DNA from: Dicyema japonicum | Lineage: Eukaryota; Dicyemida; Rhombozoa; Dicyemidae | Direction: 5' to 3' | Assembly: GCA_011109175.1 (NCBI GenBank) | Contig: RDEW01000040.1 | Location: forward strand, 62,001-126,000 | DNA length: 64,000 nt | Shown here: in pieces, positions 2,275 through 59,043 of the stretch | Layout of the letters: every line of letters begins with the position of its first letter | Numbering within the stretch: the stretch's first letter is position 1 | The notes under the pieces: model-generated | The model's database searches: none | What the model was told of the DNA's origin: nothing | The model's input: the letters and a program-made list of their open reading frames with translations, nothing else | Position numbers and translations under genes: made by a program

Positions 2275-3190
2275 CAGAGGTTGTCAAACGGTGTGCCGCC
2301 TGCCAAATACAAATTTGAATAAATTTATATACATTTTTGACCTAATTAATTTAAAAAGATAAACGAATTAAAATAATTACTAAAATTAAAATAATCATTT
2401 TTTTATTATACATTAAATGACATTTACATTGGTTAACCATTATTTATTAATTTTTTAATAACGTGCGCATCAACGTGATTATGTGTAAATCAGTTCGTCG
2501 TTCTTTTAAAGATTCTTATTTGTCATTTGGATTTATATGCAAAGATAAAAATAAACTACCTCAATGTTTAATTTGCATGGATTTTTGACAAGTGATGCTA
2601 TGGTTCCTAGCAAACTAAAGAGACATTTTACTTCCAAGCATCCGGACTATTCCGAAAAATCTGTAAATTATTTTATCCATTTGAAAAAACAACTTAAGTA
2701 TTATTTGGTTTTTACTATGAATCGTAGATCTAGTCAAATGATGTTCAGTGAAACTTTTTTAAACACAAAGGAATCATTGAAATGTTCATACCTGATCTCA
2801 GAAGTGATAGCAAAACAACTAAAAGCTCACAATATTGGAGAAAACTTGATAATCCCTGCTTGTCGTATTATTGCTCGGACTATGTTTGGTCATAAATATG
2901 AACAAAAAATAATGAAGATACCTTTGTCAGATAACACTGTTTCTCGTCGGATTTGTGCTGAAATGCGAGTGCCTTTGTTAACCATTCGACCTGATATTGA
3001 TGATATATGCAAAAACAATAATAATTAAGAATTCATTATTTGATTAATAAAAATTTGGGAATTAAATAACCAATTTTTGTACTTAGTTTTACACATCTTA
3101 AAAAATTAATTTTTTTATTTTTTAATGTGTGCCGTGGATTATTTTTTTACGATTAGTGTGCCGCGAGAATTATTTTTTGAAAAGCTCTGC
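2275..3190 (+). mobile_element. hAT transposon copy 1, internally deleted
   Basis: Flanked by a perfect 8-bp duplication, CTATAAAA (2267-2274 and 3191-3198), diagnostic of hAT elements. Ends carry the terminal inverted repeat CAGAGGTTGTCAAA / CAGAGCTTTTCAAA (the right end read as reverse complement). Compared with copy 2 (49508-51212) it lacks the middle of the transposase. The break lies at TGCT, which occurs at both edges of the missing segment in copy 2, giving a 4-bp microhomology junction. Confidence 0.92.
2564..3028 (+). pseudogene. hAT transposase remnant (BED finger and C-terminal end)
   Basis: A BED-type finger start (CLIC then KLKRHFTSKH) is followed by the next linker region. At the deletion junction the frame jumps to the family's C-terminal tail (EMRVPLLTIRPDIDDIC). 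Catalytic DDE regions are absent, so this copy cannot encode a working transposase; it could only move if another copy supplied the enzyme. Confidence 0.85.
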
Positions 3191-5731: not shown

Positions 5732-6704
5732 TTACTCTCTCTGTTTTTCTCGCAGCTAAAAATCGCCAAATCACTTACAGTAGTGAGTTCTTCCATCGTC
5801 TTAGATTCAATATTTCGAATATCCTCGATGGATAGCTCGAACCAGTCGTCCATATGACACACCAATTGGCGATGAAAGCGAAGAAATAGAGACCGTTGAT
5901 ACTACTAAATAACCCAAATAACAACATCATGCACACATTTCTCCACCACGGATTGCAGTCCGAACCATTCAAATTGGACCTTCACTAGCTTATAGCAGCA
6001 CATCATGGGTTCACAGTTTGTCTACCACATAACAACAATTCACAGAACTTTCCAGTCTACCCCGTTTAAAGGCCCCCGACCAGTCTTCTTAGAATTCCAA
6101 GCAGATGGAGGATACTTGGTTTCCTAAAAAAGACTTCAATTCTACTTTGTCAATGTCATTAACAATGTCGATGTACTCCACCACGCGCATTTTCAGCAAC
6201 TCAGGAGTCAGTTCGTGGGCATTATGCGTAGTCCCAGAATCTGGAAGGTGAATAGTCTCGATGGAAATGAAAAATTTGTCCTTCATATAGTCAGGATTCT
6301 AAAATGAGAGGGGGAAAACCGATATAACAGTTCTGCAGTAGGGGTAGCAGTTCCAAGCATTCTCATGAAGCTTAAGAGATCCTTTAGGCGCAATTGTTCG
6401 CACAACTCGAGGAACCCGACTGAAATAATAGGGGGAAAACTGGCTTAGATGGTAGATCTTATTTGTGTACTGTCCTTCGCAAAAATTACCAAATATAGGT
6501 TTTTCAGGATTACTGAAAGGTTCATTTTGGAGAATTTCCACTCCCTCACCGCTATGAGTCTCCTTTTTGCTCATCTCAGAGACCTCGTAGAGCTGAGCCA
6601 CTTGGTACTAAAGACTTAGCCTAAAATGCACCTCTTCGACGGTCAAAGGTAGCGCAATACGGCTAGCAACTATAAAAAATGAAAAACTATTCCTTGATCA
6701 ACAT
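5732..6704 (-). CDS. PITPNA: Class I phosphatidylinositol transfer protein (PITP alpha/beta type), 9 exons
   Basis: Moves phosphatidylinositol and phosphatidylcholine between membranes in the cytosol and supports phosphoinositide signalling (family knowledge). Exons: 6688-6704, 6632-6662, 6441-6607, 6320-6419, 6146-6298, 6049-6123, 5926-6021, 5779-5901, 5732-5755. Their sum, 786 nt, gives 261 aa against about 270 in vertebrates. The eight introns are 25, 24, 21, 21, 22, 27, 24 and 23 nt. Diagnostic stretches: [19 protein letters not shown] at the N terminus, [40 protein letters not shown] and [14 protein letters not shown] short extra loop ([13 protein letters not shown]) sits after NEPF. It looks intact. 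Confidence 0.95.
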
Positions 6705-8413: not shown

Positions 8414-10045
8414 TCATAAATCCCTCGAGGACCAAACCATGGCGAGTTTCAAGGAAGAAAGGAAATACTTCATCGATGTAGTCCACATCACATCGTCAGT
8501 TCCCTTAAAGCTAACCTCAGTCAGTAACACAACCAAATCGGATATTTAACACTATCGACCAGAATATGATCATCCATAATAGTACCAGGAAACTCATAAG
8601 ACGAATCACTTTGAGTAATATGATTTACCAACTGCACAATCAAAAAATCCAACAAACCACTTCCAAACATCGAAGCAGTCCGACCAACCCTTCATTGAAC
8701 CTAAAATAAGTCATAAAACAACGGAGAACTGTCCGAGAGTTTTTTTACTTCAGAAAGATATCTAAACTAAGATATCAATGTCAACAAAGGGTAGACACGA
8801 GTCTTCGTTCCTCTATATTTTATTGAAGAGGAGGAACCCAAAGGCAACATTTCATAGCTAACACTTACTCATACACAAAACTGAGGATGGTCAAGACTTT
8901 GCAGTCGAAAAAGGACTTTTATGACGAATACTGTCTGTCCCAGGGCTGCATTAAGCTCAGACAGAGGGATCTGCAAACTTAAAGATAATAACGGTTACTT
9001 GAGATGAAGGAATAAAGCCCAGTCTGAAACCGTTAACGGTCCCACAGTGACCATCAAAGGATATCGAGAATGCCAAGTCAAGGGGATTTGTTGAACTCAG
9101 ATACTTGATCTCATTCTTGCAGTAATGGATCCCGTAATCTAGGTCCTGGCCTTCCATTTCCAAAGAATGCAACTCCTCTTGAATATCAATTGTCCGTTTT
9201 TGGTACCTTTTATAGAATAAACGTACAAACTTGTTAATCTCTTTTTCAGAGACAGCAATCTCCTGGGAATAACTCTCAATTTCCGCCAAAACACGGCAAC
9301 GTTCTTCATCCACTCTGTTAAGTTCTTCTTCGAGTCTAGTCTCTTCCTCCAAAAGCTAAAAATAGGTCAGTCTGTACTTTGGAAAGCTGTTCTACCTCGT
9401 CATCACAAATCTGTGTTTGGTTCTCCTTGGAGTCAAATTTCTGATGGAGGAACTGATTTAGTTTACTAAAATGAGAGAAATAAATACTAGAACTCTTCGT
9501 ATTCCTTCTCTATTTTCTCAGTTACTTTGTCAAAATGTCTGATGACTTTGTCAGCGCATGACTAACTAGACAAATCAGAAATACTTGGCAAATAGGATGA
9601 TCTATTCCAAGTTCGGTGGAAAGTTGATTAAAAAGCTCCCCCAAAGCCTTATCAGAATCTGAAATGTTAACTTCATCTTTCTCACTATTATTTAAATAAA
9701 ATTAAATAAATATTTAAGTTTGGTTAAATAATTTTATAATTATTAAAAATTAAAAAAATAAAATATTCAAAATATAAAATTACTTTGTGAGTAGGTTGGA
9801 ATAATCGTATTTAAGCAATCCAAGCTTAATTTCGAGTTCCTTTTCCTAAAGATAAGAATAAATCATTACATTTAATGTACTGACAGTGTTCTTTTGATGA
9901 CTACAATATAAATAATAAATAACCCAATCATGTCTCGAGGAGAAGTTCTATAACTTGTAATTAATTTATCTTTATTTCCCTCGAAGCTCTCATCTATTTT
10001 CAATGGAAAACCACATCCTTGGCAAGCAAAACATACCTCGGTCAT
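8414..10045 (-). CDS. BECN1: Beclin-1 / Atg6, 12 exons
   Basis: Scaffold of the class III PI3-kinase (Vps34) complex that starts autophagosome formation (family knowledge). Exons: 9924-10045, 9870-9900, 9784-9845, 9585-9684, 9494-9561, 9378-9465, 8999-9355, 8898-8970, 8797-8867, 8720-8766, 8534-8689, 8414-8510; total 1272 nt, 423 aa (human 450). Introns are 22-30 nt except one AT-rich intron of 99 nt (9685-9783). Landmarks: N-terminal CFACQGCGFPLKID (C-x2-C pair), IDHPICQ, a central Glu-rich coiled coil, then the evolutionarily conserved domain with CGTVNGFRLGFIPS and ELNAALGQTV, and the C-terminal WTTSMKYFLSSLKLAMVW. The BH3 region is weakly conserved. The two junctions near 8690-8796 are the least certain. 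Confidence 0.92.
9685..9783 (-). other. 99-nt AT-rich intron of BECN1
   Basis: GT at 9783, AG at 9685, phase 2. It joins LLTN to EKDEVNISD in frame. About four times longer than its neighbours. Confidence 0.75.
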
Positions 10046-10190: not shown

Positions 10191-13100
10191 ATGAAAGAGA
10201 CCTGAGTTAGTGACGTATATTGGCTGAGTTAGTGACGTGGCTCTTTAAATGCAGTCTGAAAAATACAAGATTCAATGGGATGGCCTCAACCTACTCTCGT
10301 TTAATGTCAGGGGGATCTCGAAGACATGGATGAGGAAAACACTGTGCGATGATTTAGACAAGTACCGCGTCTCTATCGGATGTCTGCAAGAAACGAAGGT
10401 CTCTGATGGATGCTGTGAACACTATGGAACCTATAAACTTATTCTCTTCCCTAGTGAGTCTAAACATTACGGACAAGGTTTCGCAGTCCATGAACATCTT
10501 GTACCACGGATACATCAATTTTGGAAAGTCAACGACAGGATTAGTGTTCTGCAAATTAGGATGAATGACATGTGCCCTTCCAAAAGCTACATGACAGTCA
10601 TTAACGTGTATGCTCCACATAGTGGCAGATTTTTGAAAAATCCTGAGGAACTGGATGACTTCTACTGTCAACTATTGAGGACGTACTCGGAATACGAATC
10701 TTCGTCGTTGATATTTATTGCCGGGGACTTTAACGCTAAAGTTGGGATGCGACGCAGTGGAGAGGAATCGTTCATCGGCAGGCATGGACGGGGGTGGAGA
10801 AACACCCCGGGAACACTACTGGCCAATTTCTGTCAAGCGAATGATCTTTTCATAGGAAACACTGCCTTTATGCACCCAGCTCGCCACAGGAGCACATGGA
10901 CTGGCCATAGAACGAACTCGGAAAACAAAAGTGTCAATATTTATAATCAAATTGATTACATCATTTGTCGGACCAAGGACAAACACCTACTGAATGATGC
11001 CCGTTCTTATGGAGGGTCGATGATAAATAGTGACCATAAAATGGTTATTGGCAAGTTCTCCTTGAAGAAATACTACATTGGAAGGAAGAACCTGAGTCTA
11101 AGCAAAACGCTACCACCTTACCATACCCATGTATATATGACTGAGAAGCTCTGGTCTCAGCCGCTGCTGGTGACAAACTACCAAAAACATATAGAGAACC
11201 ACCTATATACATTACCAGCTAATATGACTATACAAGACCTATGGGATCAGACCAAAAGCATTATTTGCCTTGCCGCAAACACCCACCTTGGAGTGAGACG
11301 GCAGACAACCGGAAATATGTCACTTGGCCATCCAGACTCCTTATTACTGGCAAAACAACAACGAGAAATATGGATACAGAGTCTAAACACGACGGATATA
11401 CATATCAAAAACAAACTACGAACTGAACGAAATATTATCAAGAGAAGAATCATGAAGCTTAATAATGAACACTCGAAGGATGTCTTCCTATCACATCTTA
11501 GAGAGCTGGAGCAACTAAAGGACAATGCACAAATGTTCGCTGCAGTCCGACTAATGCGAGGAAAGAAAAAAGCGACAGTACATGTTATGGATGGGAAGGG
11601 GAAACTTATCTTAAAACCAGACGAACAGATCGAATTGATTGCTGCCCATTTTGAAAAACTGTTCAATGCGAACGGCCAAGAACTGGCCCCTTTCATCGGA
11701 GAACCGCGGATGCTGGAAACAATTATCACATCTAAGGAAGTTCAGAGTGCGTGCAGTAAGCTAAAGAATCACAGGAGCGCTGGACCAGACAACATCCCTC
11801 CCGAACTGCTGAAATATGGACCTATGCGTCTATTCGAAACCATTGCGACATTGTTAAATGGAATGTTTACATCCAACTCTGTCCTACCACTGGGGAAAGG
11901 GACATTGATACCTATACAAAAGCCTAACAAACCAAAGGGACCACTAGAAAGCCTACGCCCAGTCATATTGTTAAACACATTACGAAAAGTTCTTGCATCT
12001 GTTGCTTTGGACCGCTTAAAACATCCTGCAGGAAAATTACCTATCAGCATGCCATAGTGGATTTCGTGAAGGAAGGTCGACAGCGGACATTCTGTGGAGC
12101 CACAGGTGGCGGTGTGCAACGGCTCAAAGATACAAAAATGCCACGACCATCCTGGGGATCGATATGTCAAGAGCTTTCGACACCATTAGCCGACACAAGC
12201 TAATGGTTGTCCTTCATCAATTTGTGGACCAATCATTGCTACGGATAATCAGAGTACTTCTCTCAAGTACTGAACTGTCAGTCCGAATTGGGAGAACTCT
12301 ATCCCGACCATTCAAAACTACAATCGGCACTCCTCAGGGAGACTCCCTCTCCCCCTTACTATTTGTGATATATCTCGAAGCTGCACTAAAGGATCTAAGA
12401 ACTTGCTATGAAGGAAAAATAAACGAAGTCGTATACGCGGATGATGTGGATTTTATATCCGAGGATACAGAAGCTCTCACACATCTGCTGGAAAATGCAC
12501 CGGACAAACTGGGGAATGGTTCCTCATCGTTAACCGGGCCAAAACGGAAATCACGGAAATCAAAAGAATGGACAACATCCTTAATGAACGTTGGCGACAT
12601 GTTAATAAGCTTGGATCCCTACTGGGGGACACAGAAGACATCATCAAAAGGAAAACACTTGCAGGAGTAGCAATGCGAAAACTCAAAAAGGGATGGCTGA
12701 AAGGACTAGATGTCAATCTGCGGATACGCATGTACAATGCATTTGTGAAACCGATACTGACATACAATGCTGGTACTTGGGCCTGTACAGGTGCGGAATC
12801 AATGGCTCTCGATGGGTTCCACAGAAAACAGCTTAGAGTATTATTTGGCATGCAGTGGCCAGCCAGAATCTCGAATACCGGTATTTACAAAAAATGCAAG
12901 AGTAGGCCTCTAAGCCTGGAAATCACTGACGCCCGGTGGAGACTGTTTGGTCACGTACTACGCATGGATCTTGCTGCCCCGGCTAATGTGGCGATGGAGG
13001 ACCATTTCATGTTCGAGGGCAAATGCTTCCGTGGCAGACCAAGGATGACCCTACCTATCATGCTGCACGAAGACCTCCAAAGGATAAAGAAATGCCTAAA

Positions 13101-13252
13101 GACGGGAGACGATCTGGACATGCTGAGATCGACTGCGTGTAACCGTGGAGGATGGAAGAGGCTAACTAATAACATTGTTTCTTGTATTGCACATGCTTTG
13201 CTATAACTATTATGGCAAGGCGATAAGTGCTGTAATAATAATGAAAGAGACC
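10191..13252 (+). mobile_element. Full-length RTE-like LINE copy 1 with 12-bp TSD
   Basis: The target-site duplication ATGAAAGAGACC occurs at 10191-10202 and 13241-13252; the element proper is 10203-13240 (3038 bp). It has one long coding region and no ORF1, a very short 3' UTR, a small terminal hairpin (TTGC / GCAA), then GCGATAAGTGCTGTAATAATAAT. Compact size, single ORF and TAA-rich tail suggest the RTE group; clade assignment is inference. Confidence 0.9.
10249..13206 (+). pseudogene. RTE-like endonuclease-reverse transcriptase, frameshifted
   Basis: APE-type endonuclease in residues about 10-270: CLQETK, NVYAPHSG, AGDFNAK, NQIDYI and SDHKMV. Reverse transcriptase follows: GPDNIPPELLK, LIPIQKPNK, IDMSRAFDT, GTPQGDSLSPLLF and YADDVDF (motif C intact). 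The C-terminal region contains FGHVLRMDL and a GRPRMTLP stretch. The frame is open for 602 codons from the ATG at 10249, then breaks near 12030-12060 and again near 12510-12570. Only two lesions imply a recent insertion. The product would nick target DNA and copy its RNA at the nick (family knowledge). Confidence 0.88.
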
Positions 13253-16136: not shown

Positions 16137-18125
16137 TCAACAACCTTCCTCGCCTGCTTGTTCGACAGCCTCCTCAGGCAGGTTCGATTCTGGTTGCTGA
16201 AACAACTCCGAGAGCGCCTTGTCTAATTGAACCCTCTGCCCATATGGCATCTCAGGGCTCTGCCTCCTATACTCCAGTGTCAGGCTCTCTAGGGTCCGCT
16301 TTAACACAGTGGACTGTAGATAGGCCTGGAGCTTCCTATCTACCCCCAACTGCTTCAGATAACCCTTGTGGTACTTTGTTGCAATTCCTTCCCACGTCAT
16401 TACTATAGGAATAACGAGGACCTTGCAACCAAGCATCTGCCCCATCTCGTTTGCAAGAAAGTCATACTTCCTTTTTTTCTCCACCTCCACAGTCTGCAAA
16501 CGGTCTTGAGACGTGATGCCAACCTCTATGATAAGGACTTGGCCAGACTCCTTATCGTGTACCACAATGTCCGGTTTATTGTGCTTGACTAGCACCGAGG
16601 TACGGATAACACTGTCTACCTTAATTTGGACCCTGGTGTTCTCTACTACAGATTGCACCTTATGAGTCCGCAACTTTCTGGTGTGGCGAATACCATACTT
16701 ATTGCATAGTAGAAGATGAAGACTCCTTACTACCTCGTTGTGCCTCCACACATAGTCGTGGCAGAGCATGGATCCACATCGAGTGGCTAAATGATCAACC
16801 GACATGCTCCTTGACTTACAGTGGGGACATGTATTTGTTGATCGACCCCAAAAAATATTGCGGTCTTGCATATACGTGTACAACGCCTCCGATCGAGGTG
16901 AGTTGTCACCGTATTTTAGCCATATTGTCGACGACTTAAGGTCGACATGTGGGTTGTCCAATGCTCTGAAGAGGACCTTATGAAGGCTTTTTAAGTTGAT
17001 CTTTTCCATCAAATTATTATATTGTAATTCGATCAACGCCTTCACATTTACTAGCCCACCATCATCAACACCATACTTAGCAGACAAAAAAGGTCTGATA
17101 GTGCCTAGGTGGGTTGCCCGTGTTTTCTCGGTCGTTATTATGGCGTGCTTCCTAGCAGACACACTTGACCCAGCTATCAGGGTGTCGTGCATTCGCATTA
17201 GGATACGCTCACTTAGTTGGACTACTCCACACAGTCCACGGCCGAATTTATCACGGGGTAAATATAGTCTCTCCTTATTGGCTGCCAGCACATGGACATG
17301 GTTCTCTCTGAGTACTCCACGGATCATAACATCCATCTCATCATACTCTTTGTGCTCAAACTCCACAACACCTATGTAGTAGTTTAACAGCGAGACAGCA
17401 TACTCATTTAATGCTAGGAACAAATTCCTTGCATTTAGAGACGTCTTACACAATAACGCTGCTCTTTTACGGATGCCTTCAGTAATTTGTCGCTTTGTCT
17501 CAGGCATTATAAGGGACTTTGGAGATTCGGTAACACCCAGATACTTATATCCTTCGTGTTCCTCTAGGACTCTTACTAACTCGCTACATACTTGCGTGTT
17601 AGTCGCAGACTTTGAATAATTCAAATCTAGCCCTATACTCTCAAAGAATTCCCTGGCACAGACCCCCATGGAGTAGAGCTCCTCGGCTGTTCGAGCATAC
17701 ATCTTCAGGTCATCGATAAAAAGAAGGTGATTTGTACTGAAACAGACCCCTTCACAATGAACTGGTATTTGCTCAAACCGGTCATTGAGGCGGCGACTCA
17801 ATGGCTCCAAACAGAGAACAAAGAGTAGCGGAGACATGCTATCCCCCTGAAGGATCCCCCTCTTGAGTTTTACCTCGCCTATCCGGTGCCTATTATAGTT
17901 CAGATGAATACTCCACCTATTCATCACAGCCACTACAAAGCTGATGAACCACACAGGCATACACAGACTGTGTAGGCACTCGACAAGGTAAGAATGATCA
18001 ACTGAATCGTAAGCCTTCTTCACATCCACCCACATGGACAAAAGTGAGTTTCCGTGAGACACAGAAAGGCATTTGTTGATCAAAGCCTGCTTTTTTGCCC
18101 CCTGACAATTTCGCACAGTTCCCAA
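16137..18125 (-). CDS. RLE-type non-LTR retrotransposon RT-endonuclease (R2/NeSL-like), 5'-truncated
   Basis: Open for about 660 codons with no lesion. The upstream in-frame TAG near 18131 and lack of an ATG show that the N-terminal part is missing. Order: RT motif A MWVDVKKAYDSVDH, motif B GILQGDSMSPLLFVLCLEP, motif C as LLFIDDLKMYA (FIDD, not YADD), thumb, then a CCHC-like knuckle CPHC...VDHLATRC, then a restriction-like endonuclease core NKPDIVVHD ... IIEVGITSQ. RLE-type elements insert by target-primed reverse transcription, often at specific sites (family knowledge). A sister copy at 54148-55321 is nearly identical but broken. Confidence 0.9.
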   Translation of the reverse strand: MGTVRNCQGAKKQALINKCLSVSHGNSLLSMWVDVKKAYDSVDHSYLVECLHSLCMPVWFISFVVAVMNRWSIHLNYNRHRIGEVKLKRGILQGDSMSPLLFVLCLEPLSRRLNDRFEQIPVHCEGVCFSTNHLLFIDDLKMYARTAEELYSMGVCAREFFESIGLDLNYSKSATNTQVCSELVRVLEEHEGYKYLGVTESPKSLIMPETKRQITEGIRKRAALLCKTSLNARNLFLALNEYAVSLLNYYIGVVEFEHKEYDEMDVMIRGVLRENHVHVLAANKERLYLPRDKFGRGLCGVVQLSERILMRMHDTLIAGSSVSARKHAIITTEKTRATHLGTIRPFLSAKYGVDDGGLVNVKALIELQYNNLMEKINLKSLHKVLFRALDNPHVDLKSSTIWLKYGDNSPRSEALYTYMQDRNIFWGRSTNTCPHCKSRSMSVDHLATRCGSMLCHDYVWRHNEVVRSLHLLLCNKYGIRHTRKLRTHKVQSVVENTRVQIKVDSVIRTSVLVKHNKPDIVVHDKESGQVLIIEVGITSQDRLQTVEVEKKRKYDFLANEMGQMLGCKVLVIPIVMTWEGIATKYHKGYLKQLGVDRKLQAYLQSTVLKRTLESLTLEYRRQSPEMPYGQRVQLDKALSELFQQPESNLPEEAVEQAGEEGC

Positions 18126-18238
18126 CTGATTCTAGGAGAGAATCCCATTTGCGGCATCAGTTATGTAAAAAAGTTATTACAATTGTGGTAGAAAAATTTA
18201 AATAATTTTTTAAATTTAATAAATAAACATTTTAAATA

Positions 18239-19254
18239 ATGACCGATCTTGTGGTACTGTTTGATGTGACCCCATGTTGTTTATGTAATGTTTCCAACCA
18301 GGATGTCGATTTTGATGAAGTAAAGTAATAAATAACATTAGATATCGATACTGGACTACTTTACTGCCATATTACGATATATAGAGTTCTATTTTTCAAT
18401 AACAAATAAACCATCAATTTCGGCAATAGCCTTTGGTTGCTCTGGAAGATCAGAGTTTGTCTTCTCAACCGGGGACCTGTCCCATGCCTCGTCAAAATCT
18501 ACGATCTATTGTTCTGGCCAACTAGAGCTTCTTCATGCCCTGGAGGAGTCTTTTACATCAAAATTGACGGAAGTACTCAAAAAAAGTATACAACCAGTAA
18601 AACAGTAGATGAGGACACTTCTGAGGGGGCAAATCTCTTAAATGGGGTCATATCCACTCTTTGCTGTAATAATAAGACTTATTTAAGACATCAACAAGGA
18701 GAGGGTTGGTTCAAAGAAATCTCGTATACTGATAATTAAGGGATCCCCCGATGATGACAAGCAGTTCATGAAACTGGCCGCTATTTGCTACAAGAACAGT
18801 TCTCTGGTCTGATCATTCAGTTATTTGGCAGAATTTTACGATTGACACGTGTAGTATTGGTTATTCCGAGTCCTCGATTTTAAAGCACGTTGATTTGTTG
18901 GTCCAATTTAGTTGTCCTCGATTTCTGGTGGGAATTACTGTCACGTGGACGACGTCACAAACTTACTGACTGATTTGATAGTATTATTATTTTTTATAGT
19001 AGACTCTGTTTTGTGGAAGAAGGTATGGAAGCAGCGAGAGTTCCTTTGACATGAGATCTGTATGTTTTTGCCACGGGGTCAAGGTCAGTAATGCTTTTGT
19101 GTGCTCGTTTTGTCTGGCAGGTGAGTTTTTGTTATCAATTTAGTGTTTTGTCATTATATTCCAGTTTGTTTTGTATGCAGGTTGACTTTTGGCTTATTTT
19201 AGAGCCAAATTTGATATTCCACAACTTTACATGTGGGTTAGTAATAAAAAATGA
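18239..19254 (+). CDS. GTF2H3: TFIIH subunit p34 (GTF2H3 / Tfb4), 9 exons
   Basis: Core subunit of TFIIH, used in RNA polymerase II initiation and nucleotide excision repair; pairs with p44 (family knowledge). Exons: 18239-18319, 18342-18585, 18606-18665, 18688-18798, 18821-18888, 18912-18980, 19003-19120, 19144-19180, 19203-19254; total 840 nt, 279 aa (human 308). Introns are 22, 20, 22, 22, 23, 22, 23 and 22 nt. Landmarks: the VWA-like start MTDLVVLFDVTP, then GANLLNGVISTLCYINK, KSRILIIKG and ISGGNY. The C-terminal zinc module is SVCFCHG, VCSFCLAVFC, then C-x2-C, matching the family's spacing. Upstream is the 5'-truncated end of the RLE element. Confidence 0.95.
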
Positions 19255-21006: not shown

Positions 21007-24000
21007 ATTTTGGTGAGGTGGTGACGTGCCTCGTTTCTTGATTGGATCGCAATTGAGGAAAATGTCTAAAAGGCAATGGATACAAAGGATGCATCTCGTC
21101 TAAAAGTCCTTACGTTCAATGCTAGAGGATTATCTACGACCTGGTCGAGGAAGATTCTCTGTGATGACCTGGAGAGATACGACGTTTCTATTGGGTGTCT
21201 ACAAGAGACGAAAGTTACTTGTAGCCTTGATGAAAACTTTGGCGAATATCAAATTATATGTCAGCCGAGCGACTCAAGACATTATGGACTTGGATTTGCC
21301 ATCCACTCAAAGCTGACAAGTGCAGTCCACCGTATATGGAGTGTGAATGACAGGATCTGTGTTATACAAATCCGGCTAAACGACTTACCTCCTTCGAAGA
21401 GCTTTCTGACAATTGTAAATGTTTATGCGCCACACTGCGGGAGAGTAGCGAAAGATCCGACAGAACTAGACGACTTCTATTCAACACTGTTACGGACGTA
21501 CAACGAATATGAGTCGTCATCACTAATACTCATTGCTGGTGATTTGAATGCAAAAGTCGGGATGAAGAATAACCCGGATGATGTTTTCTTGGGAGAACAT
21601 GGACGTGGAATAAGAAATTTACCCGGGACAATACTTGGTCACTTTTGTATGGCAAACAACCTTTTCCTATGCAATACTGCATTTACGCATCCTGCCTGCC
21701 ACAAAACTACGTGGATGGGGAAGCGAAGGAACTCAGAAGGAAAGCTGGTTCCAATATACAACCAAATCGATTATGTCATATGCCGGGCTAAAGACAAACA
21801 CCTACTAGTAAACGCACGTTCATATGAAGGTTCGACGACTGTCAGCGACCACAAGATGGTTATTGCGACCTTCACCCTGAAAAAACATGCCACTAAATAC
21901 AGGAATGCAAAAAATCACGAATTTGAAAAATCAGAGGCGACTACGCGACTGAAAGGCTGATTTCTCAACCGGAGACTACTGAGAGATATCAACAATACAT
22001 TCAGACTAATTTGCAGGACGTATTGGTGGATACCACGCTAGAAGACGCCTGGAAACGCACAAAGGACACCATCAACGAAGCTGCTGAAGCATGTCTTGGC
22101 AAAAGGGAGAATAGTAAAATGCACCTGAAGGCTATTCATCCAGATGTTCCTGAGCTTGCGAAAAGTCTAAAAGAAATAAATATGAGAAAATCAAATGCCA
22201 CTGACACTAATGCGATAAAAGCCCTTCAAGGCGAAAGACAACGTGTCAGAAGAAAAATAAAGGGTCTGAACAAGAAGCTTTTCATAGAAGAAATAGCCTC
22301 CTGTATAGAAGAAGTAAACAAAGTGAAAGACAACGCACAGGTGTACGTCGCTGCCCGTTTGCTGCGGCGAACAAACCGAAGTCGACTAACCATAAAAGAC
22401 GAGAACGGTAAGCTGATACTGAACACCAAAGAACAAACTGAAGCCATCGCGGCTCACTTTGAGAAGCTTTTCAACATCAAAACCATAGAAATCCACCCAT
22501 TTGATGGAAGGCCAAGACCCCTTAAGATACCAATCACGGCCGAGGAAATCAAAACGGCCTGCCGAAAACTCAAGAATAACAGAAGCCCCGGACCAGATGC
22601 GATAAACCCAGAACTACTGAAATACGGCCCTGACCTCCTTTTTGAAAAAATCGCTACACTACTAAATGAAATGTTTTCAACTAACTCAACTCTACCTCTG
22701 GGTACGGGACTACTAATCCCCATACAAAAAACTAACAAAAACAGAGGACCGCTCGAAAATTTGCGACCCATCATACTACTAAATTCATTACGCAAAGTCT
22801 TGGCAAACATTGTGCTTGAACGAATAAAAGGACCTGCTTACAAATACCTACCAGATAGTCAAAGTGGTTTTCGAGAAGGGAGATCCACAGCTGATGCGGT
22901 CTGGAGTCACAGATGGAGGTGTGCAACATATCAAAGATACCGTAACGCCACCAATATTTTGGGAATTGACCTATCAAGAGCTTTTGATACGGTTAACAGG
23001 AACAAATTAATGGGGGTACTGGGCGGATTTCTTGATGAATCGAGTCTAAGGATGATCCGAATTCTACTTTCTAACACTGAGCTCCTTGTGAGAGTCGGAA
23101 AACCTATTCAAGAAAATTTGAAACAAATACGGGCACTCCACAAGGAGACTCTCTTTCTCCTCTACTATTCACAATTTATTTGGAAGCCGCTATGAGGGAA
23201 CTTAGACCGTCATACCAAGGAAAGACGGAAGAAGTAATCTACGCGGACGATGTAGACCTAATTTCTGAAGACAAAGAGGTCCTGGAAAACCTATTAGAAA
23301 AAGCACCAGATGTACTAGGGAAATGGTTTCTTACTGTGAACAGAGAAAAACAGAACTCACAGAGATAAGAAGGATGAGTAACGTCCTAGAAGAGAAGTGG
23401 CGACAAGTAAAGAAACTCGGTTCACTTATGGGAGATAGCGAAGATATTTTACGTAGGAAAACTCTAGCCAATGCTGCGTTATATAAACTGAAGAATTTAT
23501 GGCTCAATCAAAAAGGCATCGACACAAAAATGAGAATCCTACTATACGACTCATTCATAAAACCCGTACTTTTATATAACGCTGGAACTTGGGCGACCTC
23601 ATCAGCGGATATGAAAAAACTAGACTCGTTCCACAGAGGTCAGCTGAGAAAAATAACAGGAACTACTTGGCCTACGAGAATATCTAGGAATGCTTTATAT
23701 AAGAGATGCAGCACTAGACCTATCAGCTTAGAAGTACTGGAATCCCGATGGAGGCTCTTCGGACACGTGCTGAGGATGGAATTAACTTCCCCACCGAACA
23801 TATCTATGGAAACATACTATGTTAGTAAGAAGGCCGCTATCGGGAAGACCAAGAACAACACTGCCAATAGTCTTACAAAAAGACCTGGTCAGTATAAAAA
23901 AAAACCTAACAAATGCCGACGACCTGGACAGCATGAGAGCCTTGGCTAGGAACAGGGGAGCATGGAAAAGGATGACATCTAACCTTGTTTCTTTTGCTGC

Positions 24001-30580: not shown

Positions 30581-31280
30581 ATGGGTATTTCTTTAGTGTG
30601 ACAATTTTAGACAATCATTTTTTCGTTGCTGCGGTCTCTTCTAATGAAGATGATGATTCATTTGATTGGCTGGTAAGATTTATTTTTGAATTACTAAGGG
30701 TGATTGTCAACAAGAACTTACAGAAACAAAATACTCCTAATTCACGGAAGCAGTAGTAAAGCCTAAGCCAAAAAAACCCTCAAACGCCTTCACAGCTTGT
30801 CCAGAGATTATAGAAACTGCAGAAGAAGCTCAGATTCGTATTAATGCTGAACAACTTACATCCGAATTGTCTCTAATCGAAGACTTGGCCGTCTCTAAAA
30901 ACAATATCTCAAGCTCTGACATTTCCTCTCTCCTTAAAACCAAATCCTATAAACAGGTGGTCGCAGAAATGGTGACAGAAATCAAGAATGCTACTAAAAA
31001 TCCTATATTTGATGCTTTTCTTGAGACTCTGATAATATCACTGTGTAACATTGGTATATTGTTAGTCATATTTTAGCTAAACACAAAGCCTTACGAAAAT
31101 TGCTAGAAATGTGGCTAATTTAAATGAAAAAGTGGAGGTTTATTTAATATCTTACAATAGGTCACCAAAACGACGAAGGCAACTAAGAAGAAGTCAAAGC
31201 CGAAAGTAAATATGAAGGTTGACGACATGACTTTGATGGAAGATGAAATGAGAGATGATTTGGATGATGATTTTATGTGA
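30581..31280 (+). CDS. EIF3J: Translation initiation factor eIF3 subunit J
   Basis: eIF3j loosely binds the 40S decoding centre and helps eIF3 recruitment and recycling (family knowledge). Start: ATG at 30581, G, then a 26-nt intron (30585-30610), giving an acidic N terminus with SSNEDDDSFDW. The central exon encodes VVKPKPKKPSNAF, PEIIETAEEAQIRINAEQL and a TKNPIFDAFLETLIISL helix. A 23-nt intron (gtttat..caatag) precedes the C-terminal exon KKKSKPKVNMKVDDM, ending MRDDLDDDFM-stop; the family also ends in an acidic D-F-M. The splice choices around 30672-30755 and 31045-31095 are unresolved. Confidence 0.85.
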
Positions 31281-31594
31281 TTGTTTGATGATTATAGGTT
31301 TTATTTGTCTTTTTTAAATATTAATTTAGTATTTTTTAACATTATTTCGATAAATTTTTCGCATAAATGACATTAATGATTATTAAATTAAGACGCAAAA
31401 GGAATCTATTTATAGTCAATCTTTCGTGATTGAGAGTACATTGCCTATAATTATTTGTAATATAAATGCTATCAATCAGTCACCCCTCTTCTGGCTGTCC
31501 CTCCCCTTTTGCTGTCAAGGGGAGCGATTTGGGTCTTGTGATCTCATAAGGTTTCGTCGACTATTAAAAGAACACTTGAAAATTCATCTTTCGT
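31281..31594. other. AT-rich 3' flank of EIF3J
   Basis: No gene or repeat recognised. Confidence 0.4.
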
Positions 31595-36341: not shown

Positions 36342-39300
36342 TCAAAGAGGATAATCAATAAATTGTCCACATTTTATAAAGCAATCTAGAGTCGCAATAA
36401 TACTGAGATTAGACATGTTCATATAAATATACAACTCCGTAACATCATTACAGACCCGTACATCAACCTCATCATACTCATTTTCAAACAGAGCAGACTT
36501 TCCACATGAATTCACATACATTAACTCAATGCATCCAATTTTGTATAAAACCTGCAAATAACCCCCATTTATTACCATAATCAAATCAACGATATCTCCC
36601 ACACTTAGACAAGGATCAAACATTTTAAAGACAGACTCCAACGAACAGACACCCACTTGTGCAAGTCGAGTAACAAGTCCTTCCACACAATGACGTAGAG
36701 GAGGAAGCATCAATGAGCCTGTTAATGACTTCCATGGGCGAGGAGTAAAATACGAGTCATCTACACTCATCATCCACGTGCTTATCCACGAACTGTCCAC
36801 CAATCGGCATTCCTGATAGGTCCCACAGACAACCTAACATAAATTACCAAGAAAACAAGATTTTCATTAATCATTTCCTCCAAAAACAGAGAAGGCCACC
36901 TCATCCTTCTTTATATCCATCAAAGGAAGCCCAACTACTCCACACGAAGAAATCTTCTTCCAGAGATCTTCGAACACATGAGACGAGGGAGATTTATCCT
37001 TCATAAAGCGATCAAATGACATCAAATCAACTTTTTTCACGGTTTTCTAAGTTTTTTACGAAAATCTATTACCATTAGATATTTATACGAGTCGATAATG
37101 GCTGTTGATTCTGTCAGCGGGGGAATCCCCGGCTTTGAAGATTTAAAGTCAACTTTAAATGGGATGATTTTAAAGAAATCGTAGGTGTCATCAGTGTTGG
37201 TCGTAAACCGGGTCACACTCTCATTGATCGGTCGGTCAGCTATTTGTTAGAACAACCACCACCATCAATCTCAATGTTTAATAGTGAGAGACTTGTATAA
37301 AGGTCATGTGGTGGAGCTTCGAATCCATAGTTCAACTCCATTGAAGGTTTCTGGTTTACATTTTCATCAAATGTGATGACATAATCACCCTCCGTCACGT
37401 TTTGATGAATTGGGGGAACACGTGACTTTTCCACAATCTCATCCAGACAGATTGGAGACTCCATCATCAATTCAAATGAGTTTGGGTTGTCATATAGTTC
37501 AAAATCATCATCATTCTCCTGTTCTGTCCTTCCCTGTTTATATAGTAGGTCTGGGACCCTTACTTCAAAGCGAATCTCAAGTAATTATCAGCCAATACAG
37601 AGTTGTTAGCCATAAGAACAGTCACTGTGTCCAGACACATCCGCGAATAGTCTATTCCATTCAAAAGACGTTCATTTCTAGGGTAATCATTCAGTTTATT
37701 GTAAAAGTAGAACGAATGTTGGCACATCCATGTGGAGTACTCGCATGAGAAGAAGGATAAATAACTAAATAGTGAGAACACATCTACTTTGGAGTAAAAT
37801 AACTATAGGGTTTATTTGAAACCCCAAACAGACTCTACAAATTAGATAAAATAGTACATTGGTTTTGAAGAGAATCCCAAATTCTATTAGTAGGTTATTA
37901 CAGTCTATCAGCTTGTCCTTTAGTTGCGAGGCTAAATCAACACAACCAGCGACTTCCAGATTCATTCCCCGCTCATAAATCCAACCCTGTCGTGTTAAAC
38001 AATATTTACCTGAAGAAACTCGACAATCTTCATCTTCTCAACGTCTTCCGCAGAAAAATTACGGATTAACCGTTTTTTGGAGCTAAAAAATTTCGATCGG
38101 TCACTCAAATGGGGGATGTCGTTCAATTGTTCGTTAAAGTTGGTCTTGGAAAGATTACATGACCTATCAATACAGAGTAAAAGATAACTTTTCCATGATG
38201 ATCTCAGCCAACTGATTGAAGGCAGAGTACAGCCGTCTCTGATGAGATATCTTCATAGTAAAAGGGACCTTGGCCATATTTTTAACGTCTCTCTTTATCA
38301 ATTTTTTTACAAAAGAAAAGACACGCTGTTTCAGTACCACGTGATGTCTCCTCAATATGGCGTACCTTCTGTCACAAGCATTGTACCCCTTCTTGTATCG
38401 AATTTTCTGTTATAATCGTAAAAAACATACAGGACAATATTTAACAATTATTCTGCGTATACTCTGCCAAGACAGCTTGATTTGTCGTTTACTGGCGTTG
38501 GTCATTGATTCCTCAATTGCCTTACAAATCAACAACTACCATAATCAGCCATATTCAACCAAGACATCCTCCCGTTTGGTCCAAACTTGCCTTAGATCGT
38601 TGTTTAAAGAGGGATCCTCATCACTACTTTCTTCATAATAAGACCAATCATCTCCCAAGGATGACCGTTTGGGAGTCGAATTGATCGGTTTTTGTTTCCG
38701 TTTGACTTACGTAAAATCAGAATGCAACCACTCCGCCTCGCCTTCTTCCTCAAATGATAGGATTCGTTCTACAATAAAGACACGTGACACCTGAGGGAAG
38801 AAATACAAGGAAATTTCATCCGGAGTCAACCAATATTTCTCCAAATGCCTGGAATCCAAATTAACCGATACATCATCATTTCAGAAGGGGTCCCCAACGT
38901 TCCAAGTCCATCCCCAGGTATTCTGTCCATCTCTTTAACCTCTTCAGTCTTCATGAGACTCAGCGAGGCACACAAACGGACAATAGCCTTATTAGTATCA
39001 TCACTGTTCAGTTTATTCGGGATTTCTATAATAACATGTCATTTCCAACCGTCAACAAACTTTCCAGGAGTTTTCAGACATAAAACTTTTAATTCTTCCC
39101 AAAACTTAGACACTTCTTCCAAAGTCCTCAAATCAAACGCTTTGATATCCCAATCTCCATCTTCGATGTTATTAACAAGTTTCACAGAGTCGTGGAGAAA
39201 ATAGTGCATCTCCCATTATTACAAACCTCACCTTATTTAAACACACAATGTCAGGGGATTTGAGGACAGAGATTAGCCCAAATATGATCATGTACTTCAG

Positions 39301-41470
39301 GTGATGTCGCAAAGAATTTAGAAACCTCTGTCGAGAAGTGACAAATTTCACAATTTGAGGAGGCTGAAGTAAAAGGGGATCCACATGGTCATTTCGTCAG
39401 CTTCCATTATCTCAGTAATCTCCCCTGGCTACAATCAAACATAAAATTACAATTTCAGTAACTCTCATCAAATCTATAACAATCTCCAAAGGAATATGGT
39501 AGACAATATCAATCCCCATAAACCATCCATTTGCCATGTCTCTAATAAGTAACCTATCACCAACCTGGCATATAATTGTCAATTTTTGGGAGAAAACGAC
39601 GCCAGTCCTTCACGTCTAAATAAACGGGAACATTCACAGAATCCATAAATTCTAAGTTATGAAGAAAAACGAACTATAAACATCAATCTGGTCTGTATTT
39701 TCCCTTCTTTTGAGAATGTACACCAAATACTCGTGGAGAAGTGATATCCTAATGTTTCTGGGCTTAACAGAATAGCTGATAGTCTTCTAAGCATTAGAGA
39801 ACAAAAGACTTTTGATAGCTCAGCTTTCACTGCTGGGGACAGAACTGATATAGAGGAAATCATGGTAGCGTATTCTCCGAGCTTTCTGTGGGCATTTAAC
39901 AAACCAGGAGAAGAGATTTTTTTCTTTGGGGATTCCACGTAGGGTTTTTCTTCAGGGATAGGCAAGATGGGTTCAATGTAGGAGGACTTGTGGGGTGGTT
40001 TGTACTTTTCCGTGAGTCGGTATTTACTGGAAAATAAAAAAACGGAAAACAGATCGTCCTTGATTTCTATTTTCTCCAATATATTCTCAGATACGAGAAA
40101 TCTGAGATGTGAACGTAATTCGTACCAACGAATGGTCGTTTGGTCACGTAGATTGATAATTGTACAATATTCTGGGTACCACAGTCTCAGGAGGTTCAAA
40201 ATCTGCTCAATGTTTAACAATCCAACATCAAAAGACTTATTTTCAAAAGAATAATCTAGAATTAAAAAGACCCTTACTTGAATTGTTGTGAGACTCATGG
40301 ACGTCCTCAGAATCATTAGTCACCAGTCTATAACCGTACATGATTTTACAAAGGCTTGGATGAATACAAATATTACGATTTCTTATTATTTCTCTTCCGA
40401 GGAATCTGTTTGGTGAACCGTTCAATGACTTGAGATCCTTCGATCCGTTCAATAGAGTGTTTGGAGCTGATTTTGTCAGATTAAATTTTTCTTCCTATCA
40501 TGAGCACGTGAGCATACAATGAAGGCGATCAGATCTTTCTGGAGGCACTGATGGTTTTTCCGCGATTTCATAAAGTCGACAACGGTTTCCGTTAATATTT
40601 CTCGCTTAAACTCCTGGAATCCAAAGAATCGACTCAGGAACAACACACGTGTGTTGGTCAGATTTGAGAACTTGACATGGAACGATGCAATTCCGACCAA
40701 TGACGTTTGCTAAGGATTAGAGGAAACTAACCTTCTCACGAATTAGCTTCTTGGCGGACAACATCTTCTTGAATCGGTAAATGTTCTTTGGCTCATTATT
40801 GACAATATTTAGCAGAACTGTATTCGATACGGTGCAGACACCCACGTGCCGAGATCTAGGCATGATATATTTATTCGACCTCCCAATCCTCTCCAATATG
40901 CAGTAAAGAGTTGGGGATACTCTCCCTCCAACCTCTCCAAACAGAAATCGATTCCTTTGTTCCTGAGACGCCACGACAACTAATCTGTCTCCGAATCTAC
41001 CAAAATGAGGCTTTCAATACTTATTGACGACGTTCTCGTAATCCTTTAGATCCTCAGGGAGGATTGGATCACGATTATAAAAGGACGAACAAGATCCACG
41101 AACGTTTTCAGTGATGACTTGGTTGAATGGATACATCTCATCTTCCTAAAAATAATTCACAAGAAGATACCTCGAAATTCCGTCTAAAATTTATCAGCGA
41201 ATTCTCATTTTTATTTTCACGTGGGATAAGAAAACTGAAGGTCGGTCGGGGAACTTCTAGCGAGAACATTTTTAAGTCTTCGTGTGACACAAGAAGAGAC
41301 CAGATTTGCTTTTGTATTGGTTTTTCAAAATCGTTATTTTCGCATAAATTTCTTTCTTTTAACCTTAACCAAAGTGTATTTAATGTTATCCCTAAAAATA
41401 GAGAAAGTTTTGAACCATCAAGCCCTTCCAGGGCGATTTCTTCGAGAATTGCTTGCTGCTCAACCTCCAT
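36342..41470 (-). CDS. GTF3C1: TFIIIC largest subunit (GTF3C1, B-box-binding), many exons
   Basis: Largest subunit of TFIIIC, which binds tRNA-gene B boxes and recruits TFIIIB for RNA polymerase III (family knowledge). The start ATG at 41468-41470 gives EEIALEGLDG, the family's N-terminal signature. Introns verified by frame and homology: 41392-41415 (24 nt), 41146-41170 (25), 40997-41020 (24), 40710-40731 (22), 40495-40517 (23), 40256-40277 (22) and a 24-nt intron near 40025-40050. Landmarks: EDEMYPFNQVITENVRGSC, DRLVVVASQEQR, LYCILERIGRSN, the block FLSRFFGFQEFK and a second winged-helix KYRLTEKY. The C-terminal exon (36342-36803) has TPRPWKSLTGSL and ends IDYPL-stop. About 1,550 aa expected against roughly 2,100 in human. 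The middle (36800-39600) consists of minus-strand open segments consistent with one gene, but I did not resolve every junction. Confidence 0.88.
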
Positions 41471-49986: not shown

Positions 49987-50117
49987 TTATTAATTTTTTA
50001 ATAACGTGCGCATCAACGTGCTAATGGGTAAATCAGTTTGTCGTTTTTATAAAATTCTTATTTGTCATTTGGATTTATATGCAAAGATAAAAAAAACTAC
50101 CTCAATGTCTAAGTTGC

Positions 50118-51092
50118 ATGGAAGTCTTGGCAAATGATGCTATGGTTCCTAGCAAACTAAAGAGACATTTTACTTCCAAGCATTCGGACTATTCCGAAAA
50201 ATCTGTGGATTATTTTATCCATTTGAAAAAACAACTCAAGTATTATTCAGTTTTTACTATGAATCGTAGATCTAGTCAAATGATGTTCAGTGAAACTTTT
50301 GTAAACACAAAGGAATCATTGAAATGTTCATACCTGATCTCAGAATTGATAGCAAAACTACTAAAACCTCACACTATTGGCGAAAACTTGATAATCCCTG
50401 CTTGTTGTATTATTGCTCGGACTATGTTTGGTCATAAATATGAACAAAAATAATGAAGATACCTTTGTCAGATAACACTGTTTCTCGTCGGATTTATGCT
50501 TTGTCGGAGAATATTGAAAATAATGTCTCATTTTCTATTAAAGAAACTCGGTTTTCATTACAACTTGATGAATCCACGGATATTGGTTTATTTTATATTT
50601 TAAGTATAATAAGGATATAATGGTGAATCGATACAGGGACTGATTCATGAACATTTAATAATTTTGGAAAACAAAATGGATGCTTATTTTCCAGACTTAG
50701 AAATTGAAAAATTCGATTGGGTTATTATTTTTAAATATTTTTTAGATACGAAATCCTTTTCTTGTGTCAGAATCAAAACACTTATCTGTTAAAGAAAATG
50801 AAAACTTATTGCACTGTTTAATGATCGATCCTTAAAATTAATGATGACGGAGTTAGACATTGGAGAATTCTGGATATATATTCGAAACATATATCCCAGT
50901 TTATCAAAACAAGCACTGACCATAATTTTACAGTTTTCAACGACCTATTTATGCGAAACAGGTTTTTCTACGCTGCATAATATGAAATATAACAAACGTG
51001 AAAGTTTGAGAAACATTGATGCTGAAATGCGGGTGGCTTTGTCAACCATTCGACCTGATATTGATGATATATGCAAAAACAATAATAATTAA
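50118..51092 (+). pseudogene. hAT transposase, broken
   Basis: BED-finger half KLKRHFTSKHSDYSEKSVDYF, then an early stop after MFGHKYEQK; degraded centre with LQLDESTDIGLFYI; C-terminal dimerisation (hATC) block FSTTYLCETGFSTLHNMKYNKR and ending IDDICKNNNN. Several frameshifts and deletions. Confidence 0.85.
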
Positions 51093-55321: not shown

Positions 55322-55705
55322 TATTACGAATCATCTTCTCCGTCAGCTTCTACCATGATCTTCTGTTCCAATTTCCATTATAATATCAATGATGTCCACA
55401 CCCTTGTAACGTGGTGAATCAGGTCCTGATGGATTGCAAATCCGAAACCATAATGTCGGCAGGCTGACGGGAAGATAAAAATGTGGAATTTTCCAAACAG
55501 TTATGTACATTGTAGGGTCGTTTTTGTCTCTTGTAGACAGCAGACAGAGACGTCGTATTTGGTTAGATCGCATACCAGTTGGTGTTTCTTGTGAGGTTGT
55601 TTAAGTCCTCTGCAATTAAAAGATCCCAGAGTGAACGGAGAAGTCGGTAAGGAATACAAATAAGACATAGTGTAATAGAGGTGTCGTCACCACCTCGACC
55701 AATTT
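55322..55705 (-). pseudogene. RTE-like LINE 5' fragment (endonuclease start)
   Basis: Minus strand: GGTCGAGGTGGTGACG 5' motif as in copy 2, then GSFNCRGLKQPHKK, YDVSVCCLQETKTT and RHYGFGFAIHQDL. Decayed. Confidence 0.65.
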
Positions 55706-56589: not shown

Positions 56590-59043
56590 ATGGGCAAAAA
56601 GGTAAATATATAAATGAATATTAGAAAACAAATTCTGTAAGAAAATCTTTGGAGGCAGAACGTTTGCGACAACTAAGTATGCTTAAATGCAAAATTAGAA
56701 ATACAAGAAGATGAGGAAGCTGAAAGAAAAATCCAAGAGGAAAATCAACGTAAAATCGAAATGGAAAGGAATATGGAAATACAAAATGTATTGATTAGTT
56801 TTACAATAGAAGTTAGCCCAGTCTTTGGTTGAATTGGGAAAACTTGAAGAAATAAAAAACCATTTCGAACGAGAAAATAAAATTGAGGAAGAAAAGCAGT
56901 TTGAAATGTACAAAGTTAAAGTCACATGAAAATTCCTAGTGGAACAAATACATTTGTTGTGATGGAAATATCAATCCCCTAAGCATTAGCCAAATAAATA
57001 CCTTTATCTCGCTGTGGCTGGAACATGGGTCAAATAAAATGGAGGACATTATGAAGAATTGTGAAAAAATTATCATTGTAGTGGAGTAAACGTAACATTA
57101 GATGCTGAAAGAAATCAATTATGCAAAGAAGTTTATCCAATATGATCAAGAAATAGATTTGGATTTCCTCCAAGAAATAGAAACTAAGCTTTTATTTTCA
57201 ATGCAAGAGAAAGTTGACATGGGACCCTAAGTATCCTTGAAAATGCAGTCGGAGGGGATGTAGACTTTGATACCGGAAACTTGCATCTGATAAACAGAAT
57301 TGACCAGATTGTATATTGTCTGTGGGTCAATCTGAGTAAAGGATTGAAGTAATTTAACTTTAACCTACAAGAACTACAAATCATCAATTTGATGTCTTTG
57401 ACTTTACATTCGATATTCCAAAAACTGTCCAATCTGCGGATGTCGCTATTCGTCTAATTTGGGAGAGTTTTGACTCTTTCACTCAAACTTCCGATTCGTA
57501 TAAAATAAGAAAGATTTCCAAAAAGTTAAACAACGTCCTAGTCGTTCAAAGTACATTGGCTAATAATGGTAACACCATAAATTAAAATTAGGACTTTCTA
57601 GGAAAAGATCGAGTAACTCCCAACCAGAAATTGTATTTATATTACTAAAAGTCAAGGAAAATGAGGTGGAGACCGTAGATGTACCAAAACATGAGGATGA
57701 ACCTACGGAAAATATCAATGGTGTTGAATCAGAGGAGGGTATATTCCAATAAATATTTTTCAGATGTCTCAGAAATTGGAGAGTTTGACATGGACGTTGA
57801 TTTTGTGGACATGCGCTGCTATCGAACAATTGGGGGTCTCTTTCATTTTGAAATTCTTAATCTTCCATTACAGCCAATTAAAATAAACAAGGATTTTATT
57901 CTTAAATTGGGTATTTCCCCAAATAAACCGTTTAGCGGTGGATGACTGTCATTTGAAGAAATTTAATTATTCCACTGAAGATTCGATGGAAAATTTGGAA
58001 TATTTTGACGAAACTGATAAAACTGTGTTTTATGGATCGCCAATTCGAATCAAATTAAAGTTTTTCCGTTTTATTGAGCCAGCAGATTTCCCGGTAACTT
58101 TCTTATCACTGAACAACCTGATATTGCATTTTGGGACACCGAGGAAAGAAATTGGAGGACAAATATTACATTTGATCCTCTTTATGACGAAAGTAACCAC
58201 TTTTATCATTTTGATCTTCGAGAGATAAGCTTCTCAACGAAAACTCTCGGTACCTTTGCCTTGGTTCAAGAACTCCACATTCATATGCCCTACCAGTCAT
58301 GGGAAATAAGACCACGTGCTTATAATCATGTACTTATCACAATGATGACATCAATCGCCGAGTTTGAGATTGAAATAAAGGTTGGTTTAAACTGTGAATA
58401 GGATGACCTTCTTTGCCTGTCCTCTGTGCAGGAATATCATGAATTAGACTTATTGCTTGGAAAGTGGATGTCCTTTGAGATATTTGTTCAGGTTTCGTTA
58501 CTTTCAGTGAAGTAGGCCTTATACGATGCTGGTCTTAATATTTTCCCTAAGGAAGATTCCAATTACTTTTTAAAAATGAACAAGAAAGTTCACTTGATGT
58601 TTATTTCAGACAAAAAAATTGTCCAGAAAAGTTTATCTGGACATTTCAGTTACTTCACCAGTAATGGCTTTTTCCTACTTCCCATTTTAATGAACAAACC
58701 GATAAAAACACATGCATTTTACAGATTGCAAGGCCAACCGGAGATGAGCCAATCAATGAAGTAATAATTTTTTTGATTTAAGAACAATTGGATCGTGACA
58801 ACAAATTCTACTAAATATGTTCAGTGCCTAAAAGTTTCTGAATTTGAAACTGAATTAAATTTCGAACCGTTAAATAGCCAAGATAAGGTTGTAAATTGGT
58901 GTTATTAAAAGTTCCATTCTACACTTTACCAAATGTCTTGTGATAAAATGGATCCGGTATACTCACCCACGGATAATTGGAAGCTGTGCAAAACATTGGA
59001 ATTATTTATCACCAAAGTAGACTTCCTAAATTACAGTGTTTAA
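56590..59043 (+). CDS. DNAI7: Axonemal dynein-associated DNAI7 (CASC1), 18 exons
   Basis: DNAI7/CASC1 is linked to axonemal dynein arms of motile cilia (family knowledge), fitting an animal with ciliated cells. Exon starts-ends: 56590-56601, 56625-56676, 56699-56787, 56810-56914, 56940-57077, 57102-57202, 57232-57348, 57372-57568, 57592-57738, 57764-57910, 57936-58059, 58086-58380, 58402-58491, 58516-58587, 58610-58660, 58725-58760, 58783-58887, 58912-59043; 2010 nt, 669 aa (human about 716). Introns are 21-29 nt except one of 64 nt. Landmarks: an N-terminal Glu/Arg coiled coil, WNKYICCDGNINP, NTFISLWLEHG, DVAIRLIWES, HIHMPYQSWEIRP, YDAGLNIFP and FHSTLYQM near the C terminus. The intron at 57203-57231 appears to use a GC donor. 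The 58588-58760 junctions are the least certain. Confidence 0.93.
57203..57231 (+). other. Candidate GC-AG intron, 29 nt
   Basis: No GT donor restores the frame between LLFS and ILENAVGGD. A GCAAG donor after the AT of an Ile codon does, in phase 2. Confidence 0.5.

Follow-up and report, generated by a model that had tools for sequence, protein, structure and literature searches.

Very probable ultra-short introns in a phosphatidylinositol transfer protein gene and other conserved genes of a dicyemid

The PITP gene

The stretch of DNA analysed here (the window, 64,000 nucleotides in length) carries on its reverse strand a complete gene for a phosphatidylinositol transfer protein (PITP), divided into nine exons (Table 1). 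Removal of eight GT..AG segments (25, 24, 21, 21, 22, 27, 24 and 23 nt; 187 nt in total) leaves 262 codons, being 261 amino acids and a stop. This is exactly the solution that the initial annotation had proposed, an in-frame protein obtained by excising segments of 21 to 27 nt. The alignment along the length of the family that had been claimed for the product was likewise found, with a score of 340.1 bits against Pfam IP_trans over family positions 1 to 245 of 246. The unspliced locus matches the same family in two pieces, of 156.1 and 100 bits.

Introns were placed with a splice-aware protein-to-DNA aligner of the authors' own, in which introns of 12 to 100 nt are allowed at a flat cost. The templates were 117 database proteins, these being the best 120 matches minus three longer than 320 amino acids. 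Introns 1 to 7 have identical borders with 107 to 117 of the 117 templates. For intron 7 a donor 3 nt later, giving an intron of 21 nt, is favoured by 10 of the 117. Intron 3 is called with all 117 templates at an intron cost of 8 and is read through at a cost of 12 (three of three templates). Intron 8 is called with 19 of the 117, with seven further calls at that place having differing borders. Widening the range of the aligner to 4-400 or 12-600 nt left the eight intron lengths unchanged (one template).

As a control for chance, each of the 256 donor/acceptor dinucleotide pairs was substituted for GT..AG in the PITP gene, using one template. GT..AG ranked first with a score of 727 and the runner-up reached 628. 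The mean of the other 255 pairs was 519 (sd 47.5), and alignment with no introns scored 376. From the sequence, the eight segments are very probably genuine introns of a dicyemid.

A second PITP locus on another contig (C117) has three introns, which were added to the intron set described below. A divergent PITP copy (L004, contig C13), in which five segments of 16 to 49 nt fit poorly and GT..AG is outside the top three border pairs, was left out of the counts.

Table 1. Genes, introns and snRNA genes, with window positions unless a contig is given
Feature	Position	Strand	Description
PITP (phosphatidylinositol transfer protein) gene	5732..6704	-	nine exons, start to stop, 261 aa
PITP intron 1	6663..6687	-	25 nt, phase 2; borders agree in 113/117 templates
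PITP intron 2	6608..6631	-	24 nt, phase 0; 117/117 templates
PITP intron 3	6420..6440	-	21 nt (a 3n length), phase 2; no stop in frame
PITP intron 4	6299..6319	-	21 nt, phase 0; 117/117 templates
PITP intron 5	6124..6145	-	22 nt, phase 0; 117/117 templates
PITP intron 6	6022..6048	-	27 nt, phase 0; 117/117 templates
PITP intron 7	5902..5925	-	24 nt, phase 0; 107/117 templates
PITP intron 8	5756..5778	-	23 nt, phase 0; in the variable C-terminus, the least certain of the eight
Beclin-1 (APG6 BARA domain), partial gene	8426..9070	-	six introns of 22-35 nt; Pfam APG6 119.8 bits
GTF2H3 (Tfb4), partial gene	18516..19190	+	six introns of 20-25 nt; Pfam Tfb4 97.7 bits
GTF3C1-like gene, part	38826..40341	-	ab initio model, ten introns of 22-26 nt
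DNAI7-like gene	56590..58664	+	ab initio model of 558 aa with 16 introns (20-38 nt)
U12 snRNA gene (L047)	G000:C68:163471-163599	-	85.4 bits, cut-off 53; one match
U6atac snRNA gene (L055)	G000:C34:237761-237858	-	37 bits, cut-off 33; one match

Other genes in the window

Tiny introns had also been claimed for GTF2H3, Beclin-1 and DNAI7 and for much of GTF3C1. The first two were solved as partial genes whose products match the expected Pfam families (Table 1), in agreement with the claim. Their introns were placed with human template sequences. GT..AG is the best of the 256 border pairs for GTF2H3 and ranks second for Beclin-1, at 174 versus 181 for TT..TT. The 35-nt intron of Beclin-1 is doubtful.

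For DNAI7, the product of the ab initio model matches DNAI7 chain 8j07_k3 (E 1.9e-37) and the family Casc1_N (69.3 bits), which bears out the presence of tiny introns in this gene, those of 36 and 38 nt being doubtful. The claim for GTF3C1 survives in part. One stretch with ten introns was recovered, weakly matching 8cli_A (E 6.5e-5), but the model has no Pfam family at E 0.01 and depends on the length prior.

The two ab initio models come from a gene finder to which splice and length models had been added, and which gave seven gene models. Four of these, including the GTF3C1-like one, are without a Pfam family at that threshold. With the length prior, 41 of the 46 introns are of 20 to 28 nt. 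With a flat prior, 21 of 35 fall in this range; five models are then obtained, DNAI7 being retained with changed introns and GTF3C1 being lost. An earlier version of the gene finder, based on codon usage from three genes, was rejected; it gave three to four genes, and the three in the window lay on retroelement-like frames.

One of the seven models, at window positions 30581-31339 with seven introns, resembles eIF3 subunit J and lies just under the Pfam cut-off (27.2 bits vs 28.9). By eye, long open reading frames at 10249-13206, 16137-18131, 21070-23949 and 54541-55417 have the look of LINE-type reverse transcriptase/endonuclease, and those around 16-18 kb and 54-55 kb are almost alike in parts. 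The stretches at 2555-3028 and 50091-51092, which are alike over long parts, have by eye the look of a hAT/ZBED-type transposase.

Intron lengths at thirteen loci

A set of 105 introns was assembled from 13 loci, a sample of conserved genes, with 36 of the 105 supplied by PRPF8 alone. The 16 introns of DNAI7, which are ab initio, and those of GTF3C1 and of the PITP copy on contig C13 are outside this set. All except two of the 105 (103) are 20 to 28 nt long, the median being 23 nt and the mean 23.5 nt. Long introns could hardly appear in the set, because the aligner maximum was 100 to 120 nt. When this maximum was raised to 600 nt, the introns of PITP and of an aldolase gene (L039) were unchanged, and PRPF8 acquired five additional segments of 161 to 403 nt for 3 score units (10246 vs 10243).

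The 36 introns of PRPF8 are 20 to 26 nt long, and 1932 of the 2310 alignment columns are identical to Lingula. The borders of 35 of these introns agree with five out of five templates and those of the first intron with four out of five. An 11-nt "intron" that was called with all five templates was rejected, as the loss of a single T from a T run accounts for the segment. This T run, at about position 5581 on the reverse strand of locus L056, is one T short, either through an error in sequencing or assembly or through a genuine frameshift. A segment of 102 nt at the start of PRPF8, called with one template of five, was not used.

For six genes encoding CCT subunits, which were aligned with PDB templates, 37 of 39 segments were kept. 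The other two (73 and 17 nt) were discarded for lying in or beside template gaps. GT..AG beats all eight other border pairs tried in each of the six genes.

Splice signals

The introns are AT-rich islands within less AT-rich exons, and a T precedes the AG. When 55 real introns from four genes were compared with 203 exonic GT..AG decoys of 20 to 28 nt, the AT content minus that of the flanks separated the two with an AUC of 0.966. The AUC was 0.917 for AT alone and 0.753 for the match to U1. Donor positions +3 to +6 hold 0.03-0.07 bits beyond intron composition over the 105 introns, with a G at +5 in 17 of them and GTRAGT in four. The spliceosome probably defines each of these introns as a unit, by its length together with its AT contrast.

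The genome sequence (64,672,829 bases in 191 contigs) contains 25 matches to U2 snRNA, 22 of which are over the cut-off, 10 to U6 (nine over the cut-off) and 11 to U1, none of which is over the cut-off (best 69.0 vs 69.5). The pairing stretches were inspected in eight copies of each. The usual 5' end of U1 is present, as ACTTAC in all eight copies and as ACTTACCTGG in seven. The U2 pairing stretch GTGTAGTATCTG and the U6 sequence ACAGAGA are each found in eight out of eight. Homologues of SF1 (SF1-HH, 80.5 bits) and RED (RED_N, 64.3 bits) are also present in the genome. A stretch resembling 18S occurs at 11 places on ten contigs (L033-L038 and five more); at L033, by eye, some hundred bases of the 18S 5' end lie amid unrelated, retroelement-like sequence.

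The canonical 5' end of U1 and the partial separation of real from decoy donors by the U1 match would both be expected if donors were chosen by weak but sufficient pairing with U1, the AT contrast arising only secondarily, from AT-biased mutation of introns free of constraint. This is rather unlikely, given how little information the donors hold at +3 to +6 and how rarely GTRAGT is seen among them.

At the other end of the intron, an adenosine is present 7 nt from the end (-7) in 51 of the 105 introns, and at -7 or -8 in 83. The -7 adenosine has a z of 4.4, and none of 2000 permutations reached the maximum over positions (104 introns of 29 nt or less). Its frequency is 0.56 in PRPF8, 0.51 in the CCT genes and 0.38 in the rest. 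In a smaller set (68 introns plus 14 from DNAI7, 81 being 28 nt or less) the corrected p was 0.08, and significance came once the CCT genes were added. The branch motif yTnAy is not enriched in the 68 introns (41 vs 39.6 +- 4.7 expected). Going by base frequency, the -7 adenosine is likely to be the branch adenosine. A branch adenosine some 7-8 nt from the 3' end would, in an intron of 23 nt, fall at about nucleotide 16-17.

In-frame stops

An in-frame stop is present in 27 of the 30 introns that have a length of 3n, vs 33 of the 75 of other lengths (p 8e-6). The remaining two frames of these 30 introns contain stops in 33 cases out of 60 (p 6e-4). An excess of stops might have another source, the missing of in-frame introns by the aligner, and the intron cost was varied as a control. 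For the five database-templated loci, p was 0.034, 0.0095, 0.0095 and 0.0028 at intron costs of 1, 4, 8 and 12.

In-frame stops in 3n introns are what selection against translatable introns predicts. Such selection was described first in Paramecium and then in intron-rich eukaryotes generally (PMC11334263). Retained introns may be removed by translation-dependent decay, by way of the in-frame stop or of a frameshift. In the literature searched, no earlier report was found of a bias towards in-frame stops in the 3n introns of dicyemids, nor of nonsense-mediated decay in a dicyemid.

The host and the nature of the segments

The aldolase gene L039 has five introns, of 23, 27, 23, 23 and 23 nt, and GT..AG ranks first of the 256 border pairs. 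The spliced product aligns with the aldolase of Dicyema acuticephalum over 361 of 361 residues with no gaps, 269 of the residues being identical. This is also its closest protein (76% identity, 545 bits), the other four listed (E <= 1e-120) having 56-64%. The D. acuticephalum aldolase was fully cloned and its genomic DNA compared with cDNA (PMC2222250), and the alignment of L039 is therefore a cross-species check of intron removal. As only 269 of the 361 residues are identical, the species is probably other than D. acuticephalum. A second aldolase copy, L040 (contig C112), fits less well, with TT..GG tying with GT..AG. At the place of the 27-nt intron of L039 (contig C68), L040 reads through with nine extra residues.

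The initial annotation had named a dicyemid as the likely host, and the nearness of the aldolase to that of D. acuticephalum upholds this. That the DNA comes from some other lineage known for tiny introns (a ciliate, a nucleomorph or an orthonectid) is highly improbable: Paramecium likewise has introns of 20-34 nt (PMC11334263) and the fungus Smittium simulii (44%) is within the best 120 PITP matches, but the aldolase is closer to the dicyemid protein than to the other four listed, the median intron of Intoshia linei is 57 nt (PMC6543705), and those PITP matches listed with an organism name are all from animals except Smittium.

It is scarcely credible that the segments are something other than introns, whether pseudogene insertions (in frame or frameshifting) or errors of assembly: such cases may occur in the genome, the 11-nt one in PRPF8 being better read as one missing T and aldolase L040 reading through an intron place of L039, yet GT..AG outscores the other 255 pairs in PITP by a wide margin, the 13 loci are alike with a narrow length peak, and PRPF8 is open over its 2310 columns but for one indel, with 1932 identical to Lingula. 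The sequence evidence thus favours, with a probability of about 95%, the reading that the segments are U2-type spliceosomal introns of a size typical for dicyemids, with a median of 23 nt here.

A possible minor spliceosome and the size of the substrate

One match each to U12 and U6atac snRNA is over the cut-off in the genome sequence (Table 1). By eye, and against human sequences, their branch-site and donor-pairing stretches look conserved. No U12-type intron, with RTATCCTT as the donor and TCCTTRAY as the branch site, was found within the window and loci L001-L058. No report of U12 in a dicyemid was found in the literature searched.

A minor spliceosome may exist beside the ultra-short U2-type introns. 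A more complete picture, to which slightly less than even odds are given, is that nearly all U2-type introns are of 20 to 28 nt, with donors that hold little beyond GT and a branch adenosine at about -7, and that a minor spliceosome has been kept, its U12-type introns being miniaturised or forming a separate longer class.

In the human spliceosome, a donor-to-branch distance below about 46-50 nt fails (PMC11291888). Some 21 nt of RNA separate the two helices within the human B complex, and short introns depend on Smu1 and RED (PMC6692369). The dicyemid spliceosome would have to tolerate closer spacing than these human distances, because a 23-nt intron leaves about 16 nt. Introns of this size are a natural test of the smallest substrate for an animal spliceosome. 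Gene models of such genomes should permit introns down to about 20 nt.

Comparison with known systems

Dicyemids are minute animals that live as parasites of octopus and cuttlefish. Their tiny introns are known biology that is already in print, and the present ones are ordinary for the group. The additions made here, namely the in-frame stops, the U12 and U6atac genes and the -7 adenosine, are modest and come from the sequence of 13 loci. A paper by Ogino in Gene in 2010 reportedly treated 40 genes and may already contain some of these additions.

The comparison with published dicyemid intron lengths that the initial annotation had suggested gave a match, the median here being 23 nt. The introns of D. 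acuticephalum are 26.2 +- 1.9 nt (n = 16; Aruga 2007, PMC2222250), and a later survey described the donor sites as the weakest known, with the branch-point signature absent (Irimia and Roy 2008, PMC2483917). The short uniform introns with weak donors are thus common to D. acuticephalum and the genome analysed here. The differences lie in the median of 23 nt over 105 introns, in the positional adenosine at -7 and in the species itself, going by the aldolase. In Dicyema sp. the median intron is 27 nt and about two thirds are below 30 nt (Zverkov 2019, PMC6543705). For D. japonicum, a genome of 67.5 Mb with a GC content of 36.7% and a mean intron of 38 nt has been published (Lu 2019, PMC6736024), whereas the mean of 23.5 nt here is from conserved genes with an aligner maximum of 100-120 nt.

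More than 95% of the introns of Paramecium are of 20-34 nt and the translatable ones are counter-selected (PMC11334263). Paramecium avoids 3n lengths, whereas 3n introns are not rare in the dicyemid (30 of 105) but are stop-bearing in 27 cases out of 30.

The introns of the nucleomorph of B. natans are 18-21 nt long (quoted in PMC2222250), and those of Stentor coeruleus are AU-rich and 15-16 nt long, with a fixed position for the branch adenosine and a canonical U1 stretch (PMC9505925). It was fair to place the present introns near the lower limit known for spliceosomal introns, as had been done at the outset, but they do not mark the limit itself. Stentor is like the dicyemid in its tiny AU-rich introns, in having no strong branch consensus and in its canonical U1. 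It differs in that its introns are shorter still and that no minor spliceosome snRNAs were found in it, whereas both U12 and U6atac are present here.
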